DNA from: Blastococcus atacamensis | Lineage (GTDB): Bacteria; Actinomycetota; Actinomycetes; Mycobacteriales; Geodermatophilaceae | Direction: 5' to 3' | NCBI RefSeq assembly: GCF_002938425.1 | Contig: NZ_POQU01000041.1 | Span: 1 to 32,532 of the forward strand | Length of the DNA: 32,532 nt | Part shown: positions 17,285-26,690 of the stretch, in pieces | How positions within the stretch are numbered: the stretch's first letter is position 1 | Layout: every line of letters starts with the position of its first letter | Notes under the pieces: model-generated | What the model was told of the DNA's origin: nothing | Database searches by the model: none | What the model saw: the letters and a program-made list of their open reading frames with translations, nothing else | Translations under genes and position numbers: made by a program

Positions 17285-20200
17285 ATGGAGAGCACTGCCG
17301 ACACTCCGCGCGGCGACGTCGTCGCGCCGGCGCCGACGGTCTCCATCGAGCTCACCTCCACCCCGGTCCTGAGCTACGCGCTGGCGCACAACCGCATCCC
17401 CGTCGTCTCCCGGCTGGCGCTGACCGGGCAGTCCTCCCTGCGCGGCGTCACGCTCCGCCTGTCCGTGCGCGACGCCGAGGGCCCGATCGCGCAGACGGTC
17501 GAGCTCCTGGCCGACATCGACGCCGGGCGCACCACCGTGCTCACCGACCTCGGCCTGGTCATGGACCCGGCGGCGATGCTGCACGTCGAGGAACAGCGCC
17601 CGGGCGTCGTCGACGTCGAGGCCTGGCTCGACGACACCCTCGTCGGCGAGGCCACCGCGCCGGTGCAGGTGCTCGCCGCCAACCAGTGGCTGGCCACTCC
17701 CCTGCCGCTGGCGCTGGAGATGCTCGCCGCGCACGTCATGCCCAACCACCCGGCCGTCACCGGGCTGGTCGCCGAGGCCTCAGCGCTGCTCGAGGAGCGG
17801 ACCGGCAGCGGCGCGATGGTCGGCTACGCCGCCACCTCCGAGCGCGTGGACGAGGTGGTCCAGGCCCTGGCCGCCGCCCTGCAGCGCCGCGGGATCCGGC
17901 ACTCCGAGCCCCCGGCCAGCTGGGCCGACCTCGGCCAGCAGGTCCGCTCCCCCGGCGACGTCCTCACCTGGCGGGTGGGCACCCCGCTGGACACCGTCGT
18001 CGTCCTCGCCGCGGCGTGCGAGCAGGCCGGCATCCGTCCGCTGCTGTGGCTGGCCGACGGTCACGCGTTCCTGGGGTACTGGCGGGAGGAGCGGAGCTCG
18101 GAGAGCGCCGCGACCACCGACGCCTCGGCGCTGGTGAACCTGGTCGACCTCGGCCTCGTCGGCCTCGTCGAGACCACGCTCCTGACGAGCTCGGCGGAAC
18201 CGGTCGCCGACCTGCACACCCCCGCCTACCAGGGGTGGCTCACCGGCGAGCTCGACCGCATCGTCGGCGTCGCCGACGTGCACCGCGCCCGCCGGGACGG
18301 CATCGTGCCGCTGCCGGCCCGCGCGCGGACGCCCGAGGGCATCCTGCAGGTGGTCGAGTACCGGCCGGCCGAGCACAGCATCGCCGCGTTCCCGACAGGG
18401 ACGACGGCCCAGCCCGGCACCCGCCCCGAGGCGCCGGCGCGGGTCCAGCAGTGGAAGAACGCGCTGCTGGACCTCAGCCTGCGCAACCGGCTGATCAACT
18501 ACAGCGAGCGCTCCGGCCTGCACCTGACGCTGCCGCCGACCGCGCTGCCGATCCTCGACAACCTGGTGCAGGACGGCACGCCGGTCACGCTGCTGCCCGG
18601 CGACCAGCTGGCCGCGGTCCAGAAGGAGCGCGGGCTCACCGCCGCCGCGGACCTGCCGCCCGACCAGCTCACCGACCTCCTGGTCGAGCGGCGCGAGGTG
18701 CACGCCGACGTCACCTCCGGCGGCTACCTGCCCCGGCTGCGCAACCTCGCCTACCGCGCGAAGACGGTGCAGGAGGAGACCGGCGCGAACAACCTGTACC
18801 TGGCGCTGGGCTCGCTGGTGTGGGAGCTCGACGGCCGGCCGCTGCGCTCGCCACTGGTACTGGTGCCCGTCGTCCTCACCCCGGTCGGGCGCACCGGCTC
18901 CTACCGGCTGGCGCTGGACGAGTCCGGCTCCAGCACCCCGAACTACTGCCTGTTGGAGAAGCTCCGCCAGGTGCACGGGCTGGTCGTCCCGACCCTGGCG
19001 GAGTCGGCCGAGAGCACGGTGGACGTCGAGGGCGCCCTGGAGGCGCTGCGCGTCGGGCTGGTCGGCCACGGCCTGCCCTACCGGGTGGAGGCCACGGCGG
19101 ACCTGGCGATCCTGCAGTTCGCCAAGTTCCGGCTCTGGAAGGACCTCGACGAGCACTGGGCCGACTTCGCCCAGAACCCGCTGGTGCACCACCTCGTGCA
19201 CGAGCCCACCGAGCCCTTCGTCGACCCCGCCCGCGACACCGGCGCCTACGTCGACCTCGACTCCGTGGGCGCCGAGCTGCCCGTGCCCGCCGACGCCTCC
19301 CAGCTGCGGGCGATCGCCGAGGCAGGTGCCGGACGCACGTTCGTGCTGGAGGGCCCGCCCGGCACCGGCAAGTCCCAGACCATCACCAACGTGCTGACCC
19401 GGGCGATCGCCGACGGCAAGCGGGTGCTGTTCGTCGCCGAGAAGCGCGCGGCGCTCGACGTCGTCGCCCGCCGACTGGACGCGGTCGGCATGGGCATGTT
19501 CGCCCTCGACCTGCACGACAAGGGCAGCCGCGCCTCGATGGTGCGCGCCCAGATCCGGCTGGCGATGGAGCACGCGATCGCCGTCGACTCCCAGGGCCTG
19601 GCCGCGGAGTCGGAGACCCTGCGGTCGACCCGCCGCCAGCTGGCCCGCTACGCCGACCGGCTGCACGAGGAGAACGCCGTCGGGCTGTCGCTGTACTCGG
19701 CGCGCACCGCCGAGCTGGCGGCCGGCACCGACGTCGAACCGCTGCCCATGCCGCTGCCGTTCGTCGCCAACGCGCCCACCGAGGTGCTGACGGCGGTGCG
19801 CCGGGCCCTGGCGCTGCTGCCCGACATCGCCGACCTCACCCGCCCCTCGCCCCGGCACCCGTGGGCGTTCGTCGACTCCCCCGAGGTCGACCTGCCCGCG
19901 GCCCGCGAGGCCACGAACGCGGTGGACGCGGCGCTGCGCGAGGTCGCCGGCATCGCCGAGCTCGGCGGCGTGATGCGGCACGCGCGCACCCCCGAGGACC
20001 TCGACGCGCTCTCCCACCTGCTGTCCGGGCCGCCGGTCGGCATCGGCGTCCTCGACGAGACGTTCAGCAGCCGCTGGACCACCGCGACCGGCGCGATCCT
20101 GGGCGAGGTCGCGGCGTTCACCGCGTTCCGCCACCCCGGGCTCGACGTCGCCACCCCCGAGGTGCTGGCGCTGCCGCTGGCCGACATCTACGTCCGCGCC

Positions 20201-23200
20201 CAGACGGCGGCGGCGTCGAGCTGGTGGGGCCGGCGGAAGCGGCTGACGGCGGTCCGCGACGAGATCGGGTCCTGCCTGCGGCCAGGTGCCAAGGTGCGCC
20301 CCAAGGACGTCCCGCTGCTGGTGGAGAACCTCTGGCGGGTGCAGACGGCGGTGCAGGGCATCGTCGCCCGCGTCGACTCGGTGCCCGGCCTCGCCGCACC
20401 CGCGGGCTGGAACCCCTTCACCGACCCCGGCCTGCTGGAGCGCGAGGTCAGCTGGCTGCGCCGTGCCGGCATCGCCGTCGACGGCCGGTCGGCCTTCCAC
20501 GTCGCCCTGCGCAAGCTGATCGTCGCCGGCATGCCGTCCACCCCGTCGGCCGCCGCCGCGGTGGCCCGCCTGCGCGACGCCGTCGTCGACCTGCTGGAGC
20601 TGTGCGGCAGCTCCGCGGACCAGCTCGCGACCTGGGCCGGGGACGACGGCTTCGCGCTGCGCTGGTCGATGACCCGCCCCGAGCGCGGCGTGATCACACC
20701 GCCCGGGTCCGGCGGGGAGGGCACCGTGCTCATGTCGCTGCGCCGGTGGGTCTCCTTCCTCGACACCCTGGAGCCGCTGCGCTACGCGGGGCTGTTCGAC
20801 GCCCGCCGGCTGCTGGTCACCGGTGAGATCGCCGCCGACGACGCCGTCCGCGCCCTCGACCGCGGCCTGGCCATCGCCTCGGTCGCCGAGCGGCTGGACG
20901 CCACCGGGCTGGACACCTTCGACGCCGAGGCGCACGAGCGGGCGATCGACCGGTTCACCGCGGCGTCCCACGCGGTGCGCGAGCACCTCACCGCTGCCCT
21001 GCCCGCGTCGGTACTCCGCTCCCGCCCCTTCGACGCCACCATGGGCACCGGCCAGGTCGGCGCCCTGCAGCGCGAGCTGGCCAAGCAGCGGCGCGGCCTG
21101 GGCGTGCGGCAGCTGCTCGCCCGCTACGGCGAGCTGATCACCGCCGTCATGCCGTGCGTGCTCGTGTCACCGGACTCGGTGGCCCGGTTCTTCCCGGCCG
21201 CCGCCGGCCAGTTCGACCTGGTGGTCTTCGACGAGGCCAGCCAGATCCGGGTGGCCGACGCCGTGGGTGCACTGGGCCGGGCCCGCGCCGCGGTGGTGGT
21301 CGGTGACTCCAAGCAGATGCCGCCGACGTCCTTCCTGGAGCCGACGACGACGTCCGCCGACGACTCGGTCGAGGTGGAGACCGCGGTCGAGGACGAGGAG
21401 TCGATCCTCAGCGAGTGCGTGCAGGCGCGGGTGCCGCGGCACTGGCTGTCGTGGCACTACCGCAGCCAGGACGAGTCGCTGATCGCCTTCTCCAACGCCC
21501 AGTACTACGAGAACCGGCTCTCCTCATTCCCGGCGCCCACCCACGGCCGGGCCTCGTCGGAGCCCGACGGTCGCGGCGTCTCGCTGGTCCGGGTTCCCGG
21601 CACCTTCCACCGTTCCGGGGCCGGCCGGCTGCTGCGCACCAACCCGGTCGAGGCCAAGGCGATCGTCGCGGAGATCCGCCGCCGGTTCGACGCGCTGCCC
21701 AAGTGGGACGGCATGACCGGGGTGCCCTCGATCGGCGTCGTCACCTTCAACGCCCAGCAGCGCTCCTACATCGAGGCGCTGCTGCGCGACGCCGACGACG
21801 ACCGCCTGGCCGCGGCGCTGGACCGCTCCGACGGCGAGGGCCTGTTCGTCAAGAACCTGGAGAACGTCCAGGGCGACGAGCGGGACGTCATCTTCTTCTC
21901 CACCGGCTTCTCCCCCGACGCCTCGGGCAACCTGCCGCTGAACTTCGGCCCGCTGAACCGGATGGGCGGTGAGCGCCGGCTCAACGTCGCGATCACCCGC
22001 GCCCGCCGCCAGGTGGTCGTCTTCTCCTCCTTCGACCCCGAGCAGCTGCGGGCCGAGGAGACGTCGTCGGTGGGCATCAAGCACCTGCGCGCCTACCTCG
22101 ACATGGCCGACCGGGGCACCGACGTGCTGCCGCGGTCGGCCCGGTCCGCCGCGGTCGTCGACCGGCACCGGGAGCAGATCGCGGCCGAACTACGGGGGCG
22201 TGGCCTGGTGGTGCGCACCGACGTCGGGCTCTCGGAGTTCCGGGTCGACCTGTCGGTCTCCCGGCCCGCAGATCCCGAGACGCCGCTGATGGCGGTGCTG
22301 CTCGACGGCCCCGCGTGGGCGCGCCGCGGCACCGTCGGCGACCGGGACGCCGTCCCCGTCGAGGTGCTCGGCGGGATGCTGCGCTGGCCGGTGGTCGAGC
22401 GCGTGTGGCTACCGACCTGGCTGGCCGACGCCTCCTCCGTGGTCGACCGGCTGGCGGCGGCCGTGGACGCCGCCCCGGTGGTCGCACGACCGGTGGCCGA
22501 GCCGGTGCAGCTGCCGACCGCCGCGGTCGAGTCGTTCAAGGGCGTGGCGGCGCTGCGCTCGGCGGTGACGGCGTCGGTGGCGGTGCCGGCCACTCCCCCG
22601 GCCCGTCCGGCAGCTCGGCCGGCCGCGCCGCGCACCCCCGCGAAGCCGGCCGCGCTGGAGGGCGAGACGCCCTTCGTGCCGTGGATCCCCAAGGCGGCCG
22701 GTGAGAAGACCGTGCTCGACGAGCTGCCCGCGTCGAAGCCGGCGCGCGCGGTGCGCCGGGTGCTGCAGGCCGGCGTCAGGGCCGAGGGGCCGATCCACGT
22801 CGACCGGCTGGCCAAGCTGACCGTCGGGGCGTTCGGGCTCAACCGGGTCACCGAGTCGCGCAAGCAGACGCTGCTCTCACTGCTGCCGCCGTCGGCCGTG
22901 GACGGCGACTACCTGTGGCCCGAGGGCATCGACCGGGCCTCCTGGTCCGGGTTCCGCCGCCAGGTGTCCAGCACGGACCGGCCGATCGACCACGTGGCAC
23001 CGGAGGAGATCGCGAATGCGATGGTGGCGCTGTGCCGGGCCGCGGCGGGCATGCGCCGCGACGAGCTGCTGACGGCGACCGCCTCGGTGTTCGGCTACAA
23101 GCGGCGGGCGGCGTCGGTGACCCCGGTGCTCGAGAAGGCGCTGGCGTCCGCCCTGGACTGCGGACGGCTCACCGAACAGGGCTCGGGTCTGCTGACGGCC

Positions 23201-23203
23201 TGA
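17285..23203 (+). CDS. Giant DUF4011-SF1 helicase-Vsr-like nuclease-DUF3320 protein (Hhe-like)
   Basis: A 1972-residue multidomain protein. Domains in order: an N-terminal beta-rich region (1-370); DUF4011 starting at WKNALLDLSLRNRLINYS (about 390-600); and an SF1 helicase split by a long helical insertion. Helicase motifs: Walker A GPPGTGKS (690-697), DEAS box (1316-1319), motif III GDSKQMPP (1340-1347), motif IV WHYRSQ (1390-1395), VQGDERD (1528-1534) and LNVAITRAR (1566-1573). A Vsr/MTES_1575-type nuclease fold follows (about 1620-1745; D1655 in FRVDL, D1674 in LLDG), then a Pro/Ala linker and DUF3320 (about 1800-1960; EGPIH 1834-1838). The DUF4011-helicase-Vsr order is that of the single-gene Hhe anti-phage system. 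It acts on nucleic acid; a defence role here is inference, as neighbours are housekeeping genes. Monocistronic, probably leaderless. Confidence 0.9.
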   Translation: MESTADTPRGDVVAPAPTVSIELTSTPVLSYALAHNRIPVVSRLALTGQSSLRGVTLRLSVRDAEGPIAQTVELLADIDAGRTTVLTDLGLVMDPAAMLHVEEQRPGVVDVEAWLDDTLVGEATAPVQVLAANQWLATPLPLALEMLAAHVMPNHPAVTGLVAEASALLEERTGSGAMVGYAATSERVDEVVQALAAALQRRGIRHSEPPASWADLGQQVRSPGDVLTWRVGTPLDTVVVLAAACEQAGIRPLLWLADGHAFLGYWREERSSESAATTDASALVNLVDLGLVGLVETTLLTSSAEPVADLHTPAYQGWLTGELDRIVGVADVHRARRDGIVPLPARARTPEGILQVVEYRPAEHSIAAFPTGTTAQPGTRPEAPARVQQWKNALLDLSLRNRLINYSERSGLHLTLPPTALPILDNLVQDGTPVTLLPGDQLAAVQKERGLTAAADLPPDQLTDLLVERREVHADVTSGGYLPRLRNLAYRAKTVQEETGANNLYLALGSLVWELDGRPLRSPLVLVPVVLTPVGRTGSYRLALDESGSSTPNYCLLEKLRQVHGLVVPTLAESAESTVDVEGALEALRVGLVGHGLPYRVEATADLAILQFAKFRLWKDLDEHWADFAQNPLVHHLVHEPTEPFVDPARDTGAYVDLDSVGAELPVPADASQLRAIAEAGAGRTFVLEGPPGTGKSQTITNVLTRAIADGKRVLFVAEKRAALDVVARRLDAVGMGMFALDLHDKGSRASMVRAQIRLAMEHAIAVDSQGLAAESETLRSTRRQLARYADRLHEENAVGLSLYSARTAELAAGTDVEPLPMPLPFVANAPTEVLTAVRRALALLPDIADLTRPSPRHPWAFVDSPEVDLPAAREATNAVDAALREVAGIAELGGVMRHARTPEDLDALSHLLSGPPVGIGVLDETFSSRWTTATGAILGEVAAFTAFRHPGLDVATPEVLALPLADIYVRAQTAAASSWWGRRKRLTAVRDEIGSCLRPGAKVRPKDVPLLVENLWRVQTAVQGIVARVDSVPGLAAPAGWNPFTDPGLLEREVSWLRRAGIAVDGRSAFHVALRKLIVAGMPSTPSAAAAVARLRDAVVDLLELCGSSADQLATWAGDDGFALRWSMTRPERGVITPPGSGGEGTVLMSLRRWVSFLDTLEPLRYAGLFDARRLLVTGEIAADDAVRALDRGLAIASVAERLDATGLDTFDAEAHERAIDRFTAASHAVREHLTAALPASVLRSRPFDATMGTGQVGALQRELAKQRRGLGVRQLLARYGELITAVMPCVLVSPDSVARFFPAAAGQFDLVVFDEASQIRVADAVGALGRARAAVVVGDSKQMPPTSFLEPTTTSADDSVEVETAVEDEESILSECVQARVPRHWLSWHYRSQDESLIAFSNAQYYENRLSSFPAPTHGRASSEPDGRGVSLVRVPGTFHRSGAGRLLRTNPVEAKAIVAEIRRRFDALPKWDGMTGVPSIGVVTFNAQQRSYIEALLRDADDDRLAAALDRSDGEGLFVKNLENVQGDERDVIFFSTGFSPDASGNLPLNFGPLNRMGGERRLNVAITRARRQVVVFSSFDPEQLRAEETSSVGIKHLRAYLDMADRGTDVLPRSARSAAVVDRHREQIAAELRGRGLVVRTDVGLSEFRVDLSVSRPADPETPLMAVLLDGPAWARRGTVGDRDAVPVEVLGGMLRWPVVERVWLPTWLADASSVVDRLAAAVDAAPVVARPVAEPVQLPTAAVESFKGVAALRSAVTASVAVPATPPARPAARPAAPRTPAKPAALEGETPFVPWIPKAAGEKTVLDELPASKPARAVRRVLQAGVRAEGPIHVDRLAKLTVGAFGLNRVTESRKQTLLSLLPPSAVDGDYLWPEGIDRASWSGFRRQVSSTDRPIDHVAPEEIANAMVALCRAAAGMRRDELLTATASVFGYKRRAASVTPVLEKALASALDCGRLTEQGSGLLTA

Positions 23204-23318
23204 CGCGCCGCTTCAGCTTCTTCGCACATCGGTCGATCAGAACCATGACGACCTCGTCTACCTCGGGAGCGGAAACACAGTGCGCATCAGTTGCCGATCA
23301 GCGGTGCCTGCCACGGGC

Positions 23319-23615
23319 ATGGAGATCGCGTCCGCGGTCCAGCAGCTGCTCGACCGGCGCGGCTCCATGGCGCACGCCCCGGTGAGCCTGACCATCCCCG
23401 ACAACGTGGCCGTGGGCATCGCCGGCGGCTACGTGAGCGCCACCGAGTCCGGGCAGCTCATGGAGCGCTTCTTCCGCGGTGGCGACGTCGACAGCACCGA
23501 GATGCTCGAGGCCATCCGGTTCGAGCAGGGCTACGCCTCCCCCGAGGGGCACGCGGCGCTGTACTGCCTGTCGGGCTGGGTCGCCGCACAGGTGCACAAG
23601 GGCGGCGGCGCCTGA
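23319..23615 (+). CDS. Hypothetical protein next to phytochrome locus
   Basis: A 98-residue protein (MEIASAVQQLLDRRGS start) with a predicted helix, a short beta section (VSLTIPDNVAVGIAGGYVS) and a longer acidic helical half ending VAAQVHKGGGA. No family recognised. An in-frame GTG at 23280 has a better ribosome site (GGAGCGG), but the 13 codons it would add use rare codons (AGT, CGA, TCA, CCT), so ATG 23319 is preferred. It converges with the phytochrome-phosphatase gene with a 3-nt gap. Any link to light sensing is only positional. Confidence 0.6.
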   Translation: MEIASAVQQLLDRRGSMAHAPVSLTIPDNVAVGIAGGYVSATESGQLMERFFRGGDVDSTEMLEAIRFEQGYASPEGHAALYCLSGWVAAQVHKGGGA

Positions 23616-23618
23616 CCC

Positions 23619-25808
23619 TCAGGTACGGGCGACCCCGAGCAGCGTGACGTCGTCGGTGCTCGGCGGGTTCAGCACGCCCAGCACGGCGTCCAGCAGCTGC
23701 TCCGGGTCGACCGGCCCCGTGCTGACGGCGCTCTGCAGCGCGTCCAGCCCTGGGGCGAGTCCGGCGGCGGACCGCTCCACCAGGCCGTCGCTGAACAGCA
23801 GCAGGCGGTCGTCGCCGGCCAGCGTCAGCCGGGTCTCGGTGTAGGAGGGCGCGTCCAGCATGCCGAGGGCGGGGCCGCGCCCTGCCATCACGTACTCGGC
23901 CCCGCCCGAACCGGCATGCAGCACCGGCAGGTGCCCGGCACTGGCGACCACGACGTCGCCGCTGTCGGGATCCAGCTCGGCCACCACGACCGTCGCCATC
24001 TCGCCCGGCAGCAGCGCGCCGATCACCTCGTTGAGGCCGTCCAGCGCCGCGGCCGGACCGGCGGCGCGCAGCAGATGGGCCCGCAGCGCGTGCCGCAGCT
24101 GGGCGGTCACCGCGGCAGCGGCGAGACCGTGGCCGGCGACGTCGCCCAGCACGATCGACACCCGACCGCTCGGCAGCGGCACCAGGTCGTACCAGTCACC
24201 GCCGACGACGTCCTCCTCGCTGGGCCGGTAGCGGGCGGCCAGCGCGACGCCGGGAACCTTGGGCAGCTCCTCCAGCAGCAGGGTGCGCTGCAGGACGCCG
24301 GCCAGCCGGTTGTCCTCCGAGGCCCGGCTCAGCGTGGCGGCGGTGAGGTGCTCGGCGAGCGCGCGAGCCGCAGCCACCTCGTGCTCGCGCCAGGGCCGCG
24401 ACGTCTCGCGGACCGTCTCGCTCCAGGCGTCGAACGACCGGCGCGGGCTCAGCCGCGGGCCGTCGTCGGTCTGCGCCGTCTTCGACTGGTAGGGGTTCCC
24501 GCCCCAGGTGACCTCGCGCAGCGTCTCCGGCCGGAACCAGGCGAGGAAGTCCTCGGCACCGAGGGGGACGGCGAGCACGCCGCTGGCCGTCTCCGCGAGG
24601 TCGGAGACCCCGGGGACGACGGTGGAGGCAGCGTCGGTCGCGCCGATGCCGGCGTCCAGCAGGTCGCGCACGAGCGGAGCCACCCGCTCGGCGGGCGGCG
24701 TGCTGCCGAGCAGCCGCAGCTGACCGTCGAGGCGGACGGCGGCACCGGCGGCGGGCAGCAGGTCCAAGACGGTCAGGTCCCGCTCGGTGAGCGCCGCACC
24801 GAGGGCGCGCGGGGTGCGCCCGACGGCGGAGGTCAGCTCGGCGGTGCGGCGGGCCACCTCGACCACGCCGTCGGTCTCGCCCGCGGCCACCTTGGTGTGC
24901 AGCAGCAGCGAGGCGGTGCGGCCCAGGAATTCGGCGGCCGCGCGGTCGGGGTAGGACGGCCGGTGCGGACCGGCGTAGTGGTGGCAGGAGATGAGGCCCC
25001 ACAGCTTTCCCCGGTCGAGAAGCGACACCGACATCGACGAGACCACGCCCATGTTGGCCAGGTACTCCAGGTGCACCGGCGAGACGCTGCGCAACATCGA
25101 GCCGGAGAGGTCCAGCGGCCGGCCGGTCAGCGGGTTGCCCGGCGGGTCGAGCGGTACCCGGGAGTAGCCGGCGTCGGGGATGATCCGCATCCAGTTGGTC
25201 GTGTACAGGGCGCGGGCCTGGGCGGGGATGTCACTGGCCGGGTAGCGCAGTCCGAGGAAGGGCTCGAGGTCCTCGCGCCGGTCCTCGGCGATCACCTCGC
25301 CGTTCCACCCCTCGTCGAAGCGGTAGACCATCACCCGGTCGAAACCGGTGAGGGTGCGCACGTCGCGGGCGAGCACCTCGCCGAGCTCGTCGAGCGTGGC
25401 GCTCGCGGAGAGGCGCTGCAGCACGTTCGGCAGCCGTCGGTGCCAGGCGGCACCGGCCTGCTCGGCACCGGCGACCGGCTCCCACTCGGTGATCAGCAGC
25501 CCGTCGGCGCGGTGCAGGACGACGTCGACGTCGGCCCCGGCCACCCGGACGCGGAGCGGGTTGACCTCCGTGAGGTCACCGGCGAGCGCCTCGCGCAGGC
25601 GGGCGGCGTCGTCATCGGCCAGGTACTGGTCCAGGGTCCCGCCGGTCCGGCCGAGCACCGCTTCCGCGTTGGCCGAGGCGACGACGACGGCGAGGTCGGG
25701 CTCGGTGACCGCCAGCAGCACGCCGTGGGGCTGGACGGCGCCGGGAACGGCGATGGGCTCGTCGGCGCAGCGGAGCAGCGCGTCCTCGTCGACGTGGGGG
25801 GCGATCAC
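23619..25808 (-). CDS. Bacteriophytochrome fused to SpoIIE/PP2C phosphatase
   Basis: A 729-residue red/far-red photoreceptor with a phosphatase output. PAS (1-115) has Cys14 followed by EPIAVPGAVQPHG, the biliverdin-attachment site of bacteriophytochromes. GAF (130-305) holds PASDIP (190-195), H246 (PVHLEYL) and H276/H277 (ISCHHY), the chromophore-pocket residues. PHY (310-485) holds the PRxSF tongue motif (PRRSF, 455-459). The PP2C domain (510-729) has GGDWYD (536-541), GDVAGHG (555-561), SAGHLP (623-628), FSDG (672-675) and STDDV (717-721), so both ends look functional. Light would change dephosphorylation of a target, most obviously the STAS protein encoded 9 nt upstream in the same operon. 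GTG 25808 lacks a clear ribosome site, consistent with coupling to the STAS gene. No heme oxygenase gene is in view. Confidence 0.93.
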   Translation of the reverse strand: MIAPHVDEDALLRCADEPIAVPGAVQPHGVLLAVTEPDLAVVVASANAEAVLGRTGGTLDQYLADDDAARLREALAGDLTEVNPLRVRVAGADVDVVLHRADGLLITEWEPVAGAEQAGAAWHRRLPNVLQRLSASATLDELGEVLARDVRTLTGFDRVMVYRFDEGWNGEVIAEDRREDLEPFLGLRYPASDIPAQARALYTTNWMRIIPDAGYSRVPLDPPGNPLTGRPLDLSGSMLRSVSPVHLEYLANMGVVSSMSVSLLDRGKLWGLISCHHYAGPHRPSYPDRAAAEFLGRTASLLLHTKVAAGETDGVVEVARRTAELTSAVGRTPRALGAALTERDLTVLDLLPAAGAAVRLDGQLRLLGSTPPAERVAPLVRDLLDAGIGATDAASTVVPGVSDLAETASGVLAVPLGAEDFLAWFRPETLREVTWGGNPYQSKTAQTDDGPRLSPRRSFDAWSETVRETSRPWREHEVAAARALAEHLTAATLSRASEDNRLAGVLQRTLLLEELPKVPGVALAARYRPSEEDVVGGDWYDLVPLPSGRVSIVLGDVAGHGLAAAAVTAQLRHALRAHLLRAAGPAAALDGLNEVIGALLPGEMATVVVAELDPDSGDVVVASAGHLPVLHAGSGGAEYVMAGRGPALGMLDAPSYTETRLTLAGDDRLLLFSDGLVERSAAGLAPGLDALQSAVSTGPVDPEQLLDAVLGVLNPPSTDDVTLLGVART

Positions 25809-25817
25809 GCCGCGACG

Positions 25818-26183
25818 TTACGTGCCGGCGTCCTTGCGGGCGACGGCCGTGCCGATCTCCGAGACCGCGGCGACCACGGGCACCGCGCTGCCCAGATCGA
25901 GCAGGTCGATGGGCAGACGCACCGGCCGGTTGCTGTGCGGCGCCAGGACGTGCAGCTCGACGCCGGACTCGCGTGCCCGGCGGGCCAGGCGCATGAGCGT
26001 GCGGGCACCGGAGGAGTCGAGGAACTTGGTGGGGCTCAGGTCGATGACGATGCCCTCCGGTGAGGACTGCATCAGCGCGGCGGCGGCGGTCTCCAGCTGC
26101 GCGGCTGTGGCCAGATCGAGCTCACCCCGTACGGTGAGGGCCGCGCGTCCGGCGACCGTCGTACGTCCGATGTCGAACAGCAC
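25818..26183 (-). CDS. STAS-domain anti-anti-sigma factor (RsbV-like)
   Basis: A 121-residue STAS protein. The fold runs from TVAGRAALTVRGELDLATA to the phosphorylation loop IVIDLSPTKFLDSSGARTL, with the kinase-target serine in DSSG (56-59; Ser58 by analogy with SpoIIAA). The rest is normal for RsbV/SpoIIAA, with a short C-terminal extension. Unphosphorylated STAS binds the anti-sigma kinase and frees its sigma factor. It is the first gene of an operon with the phytochrome-phosphatase, which probably dephosphorylates it, and is divergent from an RsbW-like kinase gene. GTG 26183 has GGGAGG upstream. Confidence 0.9.
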   Translation of the reverse strand: MLFDIGRTTVAGRAALTVRGELDLATAAQLETAAAALMQSSPEGIVIDLSPTKFLDSSGARTLMRLARRARESGVELHVLAPHSNRPVRLPIDLLDLGSAVPVVAAVSEIGTAVARKDAGT

Positions 26184-26258
26184 CGTGTCGCCTCCCTCAC
26201 CATCGCCGCCGCCGGTGGAACGAGCGTAGGCCACGCGAATCCGAGGAGGTGCGCCGCG

Positions 26259-26690
26259 GTGAACATCGAGTTCAGCGTGCGGCTGCCGACCGACGCGCAG
26301 AGCGTGCCCCTCATGCGGGGGCTGCTGCGGCAGGCGCTCGAGCACCTCGGAGTGGCCGAGTCCGGCATCGAGGAGATCGTGCTGGCGCTGACCGAGGCGT
26401 GCGCGAACGTCGTCGACCACGCCGGCGAGGCCGAGGAGTACCAGGTCGACGTCTCGATCACCGACGCGCTGTGCCGGATCAGCGTGCTCGACGAGGGCCA
26501 GGGCTTCGAGTTCGACCAGGCCTCGCACGGCTCGACCCGCTCACCGCTGGAGGACCGCGGCCGCGGCCTGATCCTCATGCAGGCGCTGGTGGACCGGTTG
26601 CAGTTCGTGCAGGCCGAGGACGGTCGGCACCGCGTGACGCTGGAGAAGCGGCTCTCGCCGCAGCCCCGCCTGCGCCTGCTCGCCGACTGA
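26259..26690 (+). CDS. RsbW-like anti-sigma factor / serine kinase
   Basis: A 143-residue GHKL-type ATPase of the RsbW/SpoIIAB group (HATPase_c_2). The N box is EACANVVDHA (N50), the G1 box DEGQG (78-82) and the G2 box GRGL (101-104). In the family it binds a sigma factor and phosphorylates its STAS antagonist. The STAS gene lies 75 nt away on the other strand, and a light-regulated phosphatase follows that, so the three form a partner-switching unit. GTG 26259 has a strong GAGGAGG ribosome site. No sigma factor gene is in the window. Confidence 0.92.
   Translation: MNIEFSVRLPTDAQSVPLMRGLLRQALEHLGVAESGIEEIVLALTEACANVVDHAGEAEEYQVDVSITDALCRISVLDEGQGFEFDQASHGSTRSPLEDRGRGLILMQALVDRLQFVQAEDGRHRVTLEKRLSPQPRLRLLAD

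Follow-up and report, generated by a model that had tools for sequence, protein, structure and literature searches.

A phytochrome-phosphatase gene with linked STAS and RsbW-type genes in Blastococcus atacamensis: a proposed red/far-red-light input to partner switching

Partner switching is textbook knowledge, and the outputs for which bacteriophytochromes are mainly known are histidine kinases and cyclases. Here we describe a locus of the soil actinobacterium Blastococcus atacamensis (Geodermatophilaceae) in which a phytochrome is fused to a SpoIIE/PP2C phosphatase, and the gene of this fusion lies beside the genes of a STAS protein and of an RsbW-type protein. The locus was found in a stretch of 32,532 nucleotides (assembly GCF_002938425.1, contig NZ_POQU01000041.1, positions 1 to 32,532 of the forward strand), which we call the window. 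In Bacillus subtilis, the gene sigB adjoins the genes of its regulators, whereas no sigma gene was found in the flanks of this locus with a SigF query. Regarding actinobacteria, we take Rv1364c and RsfB to be members of the SigF network of Mycobacterium tuberculosis. Rv1364c is the closest solved structure to the phosphatase domain of the fusion, RsfB is one of the two closest solved relatives of the STAS protein, and a PP2C-RsbW-STAS fusion is encoded beside sigF in this genome too. However, in Rv1364c the PAS sensor, phosphatase, anti-sigma and antagonist parts are joined in one chain, according to the part of PMC12143880 available to us, whereas here the sensor is a phytochrome and the functions are distributed among three separate genes.

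Bacteriophytochromes with a SpoIIE/PPM output have already been recognised as an effector class (PMC9587094). They have the same architecture as the fusion and, in the accessible part of that paper, they were placed in a tree without partner genes, substrate or function. The energy branch of B. subtilis, RsbP-RsbV-RsbW-SigB, is similar in that it combines a sensor, a helical linker and a PP2C phosphatase with a STAS antagonist and the RsbW kinase (PMC12143880, as far as accessible), and red light has been reported to act on SigB in this species through RsbP/Q (PMC3019169, citing Avila-Perez 2010). Nevertheless, RsbP carries a single PAS domain and has RsbQ as its activator, and no phytochrome-like proteins had been detected in Bacillus, according to the accessible part of PMC3019169. 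The phytochrome-activated diguanylate cyclases, PadC, also transmit a PAS-GAF-PHY signal by a helical linker of which the length is important, but their output is cyclic di-GMP and the linker lengths differ among PadC subfamilies (accessible part of PMC9587094), whereas the corresponding distance, W473-Q507, is constant in 81 of 81 fusions here. Light also enters partner switching by the YtvA/stressosome route to SigB (PMC4844311, PMC3019169); in the parts of these papers available to us, YtvA is a LOV protein that responds to blue light within a large complex, upstream of RsbT-RsbU, and the photoreceptor is not fused to the phosphatase; the first of them also mentions flavin photoreceptors with a SpoIIE output. 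Finally, photocobilin, a B12/bilin photoreceptor of Saccharothrix, is a proposed interaction partner of STAS, SpoIIE and PP2C-like proteins, but it is a separate, non-phytochrome photoreceptor, with a proposed interaction and no fusion in the accessible part of PMC10979010.

In the open-licence literature of PubMed Central, a search outside which subscription papers and preprints lie, we found no paper on a phytochrome-phosphatase whose gene is linked to STAS and RsbW genes, and the review PMC9614035 contained none of the partner-switching terms looked for. A preliminary description of this DNA had been aware of no well-described pathway for such a unit. This agrees with the outcome of our search, but the fusion itself belongs to the effector class of PMC9587094. 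The fusion architecture and partner switching were already known; for the linked unit, which is real and conserved, the search gave no earlier account.

The fusion gene occupies positions 23619..25808 on the minus strand, from a GTG start at 25808 to a stop at 23619, and encodes 729 residues arranged as PAS2-GAF-PHY-SpoIIE/PP2C, as judged from Pfam, alignment and structure prediction. The STAS gene lies upstream of it on the same strand (25818..26183, GTG at 26183, TAA at 25820-25818) with a gap of 9 nucleotides (25809-25817), and encodes 121 residues including a DSSG phosphorylation-site motif. The RsbW-type gene (26259..26690, plus strand, GTG at 26259) is divergent from the STAS gene and encodes a predicted HATPase_c_2 kinase/anti-sigma protein of 143 residues with intact N, G1 and G2 boxes; like the STAS protein, it was assigned by Pfam, NCBIfam and alignment. 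The two divergent starts are separated by 75 nucleotides (26184..26258), where an alignment of 29 named loci and the window revealed a conserved GTGnC-cTAnnCT core. SigF autoregulation was considered for this region and rejected, as the conserved TAnnCT element is by eye closer to a -10 element (consensus TAnnnT) in the STAS direction than to the GGGTA-type -10 of SigF.

All four domains of the fusion were recognised by Pfam on the minus strand. PAS_2 (residues 14-112, 25473..25769, 8e-21) has the biliverdin-attachment residue Cys14 at its edge, and GAF (residues 139-300, 24909..25394, 6.3e-17) includes, according to the alignment, PASDIP (190-195), Arg240, His246, Tyr249 and His276. PHY (residues 335-495, 24324..24806, 4.3e-45) includes the WGG motif starting at W435 and the PRRSF tongue (455-459). 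The SpoIIE/PP2C domain (residues 546-727 in the Pfam extent, 23628..24173, 1.8e-39) has a GGDWYD motif just N-terminal to it, and the acidic, metal-binding residues D538/D541, D556, D674 and D719/D720 are present. The motifs of the chromophore module and of the catalytic domain are intact, and the closest solved structures to the N-terminal part are phytochrome photosensory modules.

The conservation of these sites was examined in an alignment of 81 fusions (31 Geodermatophilaceae rows including the window and 50 others), together with 31 STAS rows and 33 RsbW rows. Cysteine occupies the Cys14 column in 77 of the 81 fusions, that is, in 28 of the 31 family rows (one serine, two gaps) and in 49 of the 50 others (one gap). 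In PASDIP, the residues P, D, I and P are invariant where a residue is present, with A or S at position 2 and S, T or G at position 3, and Arg240, His246, Tyr249, His276, Trp435, Gly437 and PRxSF are invariant at every non-gap row. The acidic residues of the phosphatase are kept except for D674 (one Gly) and D719 (one Gly, one Glu), all these exceptions being in Geodermatophilaceae. Five pairs compared by the NG86 method gave dN of 0.061-0.182 and dS of 0.351-0.468, values of dS that are probably underestimated at this G+C content.

Regarding the two smaller proteins, the STAS protein matched STAS_2 (8.8e-12) and STAS (9e-12) in Pfam, its closest solved structures were 4qtp, an anti-sigma factor antagonist, and 8ih8, which is RsfB, and the DSSG motif was invariant in 31 of 31 family rows. 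The RsbW-type protein matched HATPase_c_2 (1.2e-20), its closest solved structure was 6m36 (RsbW), and the tested positions of its N-box (E46/N50/H54), G1 box (D78xGxG) and G2 box (G101xG) were kept in 33 of 33 rows. We describe the STAS protein as a predicted antagonist with a putatively phosphorylatable serine, and the RsbW-type protein as a predicted kinase. The three proteins scored under the curated NCBIfam cut-offs, namely 310 bits against 1040 for the fusion with the BphP equivalog (model positions 11-503 of 622 covered), 45.3 against 53.45 for the STAS protein with TIGR00377, and 52.6 against 145 for the RsbW-type protein with PRK04069; therefore, the names used here are family-level and not orthologue-level names. 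The coordinates, orientations and both spacings given in the preliminary description proved exact to the base, and its claims of intact phytochrome motifs, an intact SpoIIE/PP2C domain, a STAS protein with a DSSG site and an RsbW-type kinase were all confirmed by Pfam and by the alignment, in which the sites of the fusion are largely conserved. Its suggestion that no histidine kinase step takes part is consistent with a sensor and a phosphatase in a single chain.

The linkage of the three genes is almost complete within Geodermatophilaceae. The nearest named loci belong to Blastococcus, at 88-89% identity, and the fusion was found in 22 of the 23 genomes of the genus, the window's own included, with at least 76% identity for the best piece; it is in pieces in two of them (G001, G005), and G007 contains only a relative at 45%. 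Among the fetched family loci (L001-L023) the STAS gene was present in 23 of 23 and the RsbW gene in 21 of 23. Likewise, within 2 kilobases of the fusion the 30 named family loci, one of which is labelled Bacillus but belongs in the family by its place in the tree, had STAS in all cases and RsbW in 29; this set and the fetched one overlap in species. Other neighbours vary across the family loci, for instance threonine dehydratase and a DUF4011 helicase. A gene order conserved in no relative would have refuted the interpretation of the preliminary description, and this refutation did not occur: loci of both Blastococcus and Geodermatophilus keep the order, and genes for STAS and/or RsbW adjoin the fusion gene, differently arranged, in Mycobacteriaceae, Cellulosimicrobium, Quadrisphaera and another actinobacterial class.

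Outside the family, STAS and/or RsbW were found within 2 kilobases of the fusion in 19 of 50 loci (STAS in 16, RsbW in 8, both in 5). The DNA scanned within this distance came to 194,136 bases; in the 269,805 bases scanned farther out, 2 of the 50 loci had such genes. From 129 pattern-seeded matches the best 80 make up the named loci, which are therefore not a random sample. Besides the order in the window we could distinguish six other arrangements, in these 19 loci and in one genome of another class: a divergent RsbW alone (two Quadrisphaera loci and one labelled Streptomyces), a convergent STAS followed by RsbW (four loci, with M. gordonae and M. asiaticum), a divergent STAS (six mycobacterial loci), a convergent STAS (five Cellulosimicrobium loci), an upstream GAF-PP2C-RsbW fusion with STAS (M. 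parafortuitum), and, in the genome of another class (G070), a STAS-RsbW pair that diverges from the fusion gene, an open reading frame of 209 residues without a Pfam match lying in between. For the first five of these arrangements, save the type with divergent RsbW only, one example each had its domains confirmed by Pfam. In an even sample of the phylum (296 genomes, E<=1e-100) five genomes matched, three of them only over about positions 1-515 of 732; the full-length matches were two, the window's genome and G070. The arrangement groups sit on separate branches of a gene tree made by a quick method, with 82 rows of which 31 belong to no group. Since gene orders and strands differ, the fusion and the switch genes appear to have been joined in separate events. 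One locus of this tree, labelled Bacillus sp. AZ43 (L062), falls inside Geodermatophilaceae and probably comes from a mislabelled or contaminated assembly.

The preliminary description had taken red/far-red light to set STAS phosphorylation directly and thereby to release a sigma factor encoded elsewhere, and our analysis supports this interpretation in part. We propose, with a probability of about 65%, that the locus is a one-chain input of red/far-red light to a serine-phosphorylation partner switch. Biliverdin from a heme oxygenase whose gene lies outside this locus in the genome would attach to Cys14, and the light-driven change in the PAS-GAF-PHY part would reach the SpoIIE/PP2C phosphatase along a single helix whose length is constant; the phosphatase's activity on the phosphorylated STAS protein from the same operon would change with light. 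The divergent RsbW-type kinase would be the opposing enzyme, which phosphorylates STAS and is bound by unphosphorylated STAS. The output would most likely be the release of a sigma factor encoded elsewhere, and the best candidate would be the single SigB/F/G-type sigma of the genome. The parts of this scheme that we infer are its dependence on light, the direction in which light acts, STAS as the substrate and the sigma factor as the target.

The passage of the signal through the linker to the phosphatase is plausible according to the AlphaFold model of the fusion (monomer, 51 sequences; mean pLDDT, the predicted local distance difference test, 84.1; pTM, the predicted template modelling score, 0.60). 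There, and from the spacing in homologues, a single predicted helix (residues 475-510, 24279..24386, minus strand) joins PHY to the phosphatase. Its pLDDT is about 78-94, and the model is poorly confident at residues 1-20, the PASDIP loop and the tongue. The spacings F459-W473 (14) and W473-Q507 (34) are the same in 81 of 81 fusions and identical in G070, and Q507-D538 differs by one residue in one of the 81. The helical linkers of RsbU and RsbP have been proposed to dimerise and to activate such phosphatases (PMC12143880, accessible part).

Regarding the chromophore, a biliverdin source, which the preliminary description did not consider, seems to be present in the genome. The heme-oxygenase-like gene lies on another contig, directly beside a second phytochrome-SpoIIE gene. 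The generic heme oxygenase model matched in no more than 14 of the 23 genomes of the genus; when its protein served as the query, a homologue was found in 15 of 15 and in 8 of 8 further genus genomes and in one sister-genus genome, 24 of 24 altogether. Three genomes (G017, G020, G022) keep the homologue with no second phytochrome-phosphatase among the matches listed, and therefore the phytochrome of the three-gene locus is suggested as a user of its product. As for the second phytochrome-SpoIIE protein (G000:C1:22541-24829; L111:5518-8022), it is 44% identical to the fusion and groups in the tree with the mycobacterial branch (support 87), and its gene is adjoined by that of a PucR-type helix-turn-helix regulator as well as by the heme oxygenase gene.

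A number of observations weigh against this proposal, and several of them speak for other explanations. The first group concerns the neighbourhood and the sensor. In 31 of the 50 loci outside the family neither STAS nor RsbW was found within 2 kilobases, in some cases with short flanks, as would be expected if the neighbourhood were accidental and the phosphatase acted on a different substrate; nevertheless, linkage in the family is nearly complete while other neighbours move, and it recurs in several different arrangements whose carriers stand apart in the gene tree, which makes an accidental neighbourhood very improbable. The single Pfam match to heme oxygenase in the genome is weak (27.3 bits, cut-off 23). 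One family row has the serine at the Cys14 column, which would suit a photosensory part that responds to another cue, such as redox state, heme or temperature, or that is constitutive. We consider this improbable, although less so than an accidental neighbourhood: the Cys, P-x-x-D-I-P, the His, Tyr and Arg residues of the pocket and those of the tongue show few departures among the 81 rows, and the heme oxygenase homologue is kept in the 24 family genomes searched. Regarding the linker, 38.5% of the windows of 34 residues in the fusion protein are also free of length changes (76 rows, leaving out L058, L062, L064, L067 and L095), with other constant-length stretches in the GAF and phosphatase regions, and therefore the constant length gives weak support; moreover, no significant heptad signal was detected in the linker, where two phases were near-equal and 1226 of 5000 shuffles did as well as the best one.

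The second group concerns the output. No clear SigB/SigF-type promoter was seen by eye in 26184-26258. No sigma-like open reading frame was detected in the fetched phytochrome loci or in the 15 kilobases around that of G070 with one SigF query, which detects four other sigma-70-type genes of this genome and which ECF (extracytoplasmic function) sigma genes would escape. As known switches also act at a distance, the missing linked sigma gene lowers the membership in partner switching only in part. The genome has 9 STAS and 21 HATPase_c_2 matches, and therefore the partners are not fixed by their presence alone. Set beside a single SigB/F/G-type sigma above the cut-off, located on another contig, these numbers, as well as the lack of a sigma gene in the flanks, would also suit an output other than a sigma factor: STAS and RsbW would regulate some other protein, which is probably also what many of the numerous STAS and RsbW-like proteins of actinobacteria do. 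We regard this as unlikely, given that an arginine of the RsbW-type protein (residue 20), kept in 33 of 33 rows, aligns with an arginine of the solved RsbW 6m36; its SpoIIAB equivalent takes part in binding sigma and antagonist. Within the available flanking DNA, RsbW is absent from two family loci (L017, L021) that retain STAS and the fusion, and it was not found beside them in a third (L039); therefore RsbW is not strictly required there. That RsbW can be missing while STAS and the fusion persist suits yet another explanation, namely that the RsbW-type protein is only the kinase of the switch, and that dephosphorylated STAS acts on the anti-sigma protein whose gene overlaps sigF, so that light reaches SigF via STAS. 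This HATPase_c_2 protein, encoded just upstream of sigF, is, by reading of its sequence, without the N-box Asn and without the DxGxG box, both of which the RsbW of the window keeps, although a loss of kinase activity would only follow from these box losses by inference. The STAS protein is also near RsfB, named as an antagonist of the SigF factor, among solved structures, and each of the 23 genus genomes has one SigBFG match at E<=1e-50, one of them partial and below the curated cut-off. Nevertheless, the sigF locus (L121:7540-12766) already has partners, as it encodes its own PP2C-RsbW-STAS fusion and another STAS protein besides SigF and the overlapping HATPase_c_2 protein, and no physical or regulatory link between it and the window was found. 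We hold this explanation to be possible, with the balance somewhat on the negative side.

Returning to the red/far-red-light input to the partner switch, SigF can be named only tentatively as its target; light could reach it via RsbW as a second anti-sigma factor, or via STAS on the HATPase_c_2 protein of the sigF side. Doubtful, and a little more so, is the general form of the idea, in which red/far-red light would repeatedly, among actinobacteria, enter the general stress response of the SigF type through phytochrome-PP2C/STAS/RsbW units: the photoreceptor would set the phosphorylation of STAS via the constant-length helix, STAS would act on the kinase-degenerate anti-sigma protein of SigF, and the fusion and the switch genes would have become linked on several occasions, in different orders.

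If the proposal is true, red light would enter partner switching without a phosphorelay, with the likely substrate and the opposing kinase encoded next door, and light would be tied to stress readiness in non-photosynthetic bacteria of soil and rock. As all the parts are in three genes, the unit can be rebuilt in vitro and used to study how a single sensory module can govern phosphatases as well as kinases and cyclases by way of one type of helix. Optogenetics, too, would gain a red/far-red-controlled phosphatase.

Three other features of the window were recorded. A further SpoIIE/PP2C protein of 425 residues, in whose sequence Pfam recognises no other domain, is encoded at 98-1375 on the plus strand. 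An open reading frame of 111 residues (23280-23615, plus strand), convergent with the fusion gene, had no match in Pfam, NCBIfam or PADLOC, and is retained nearby in some Blastococcus loci. Finally, the plus strand at 17285-23203 encodes a DUF4011/AAA/MTES_1575 helicase-nuclease of 1972 residues with a strong PADLOC match to the candidate defence family PDC-S37.

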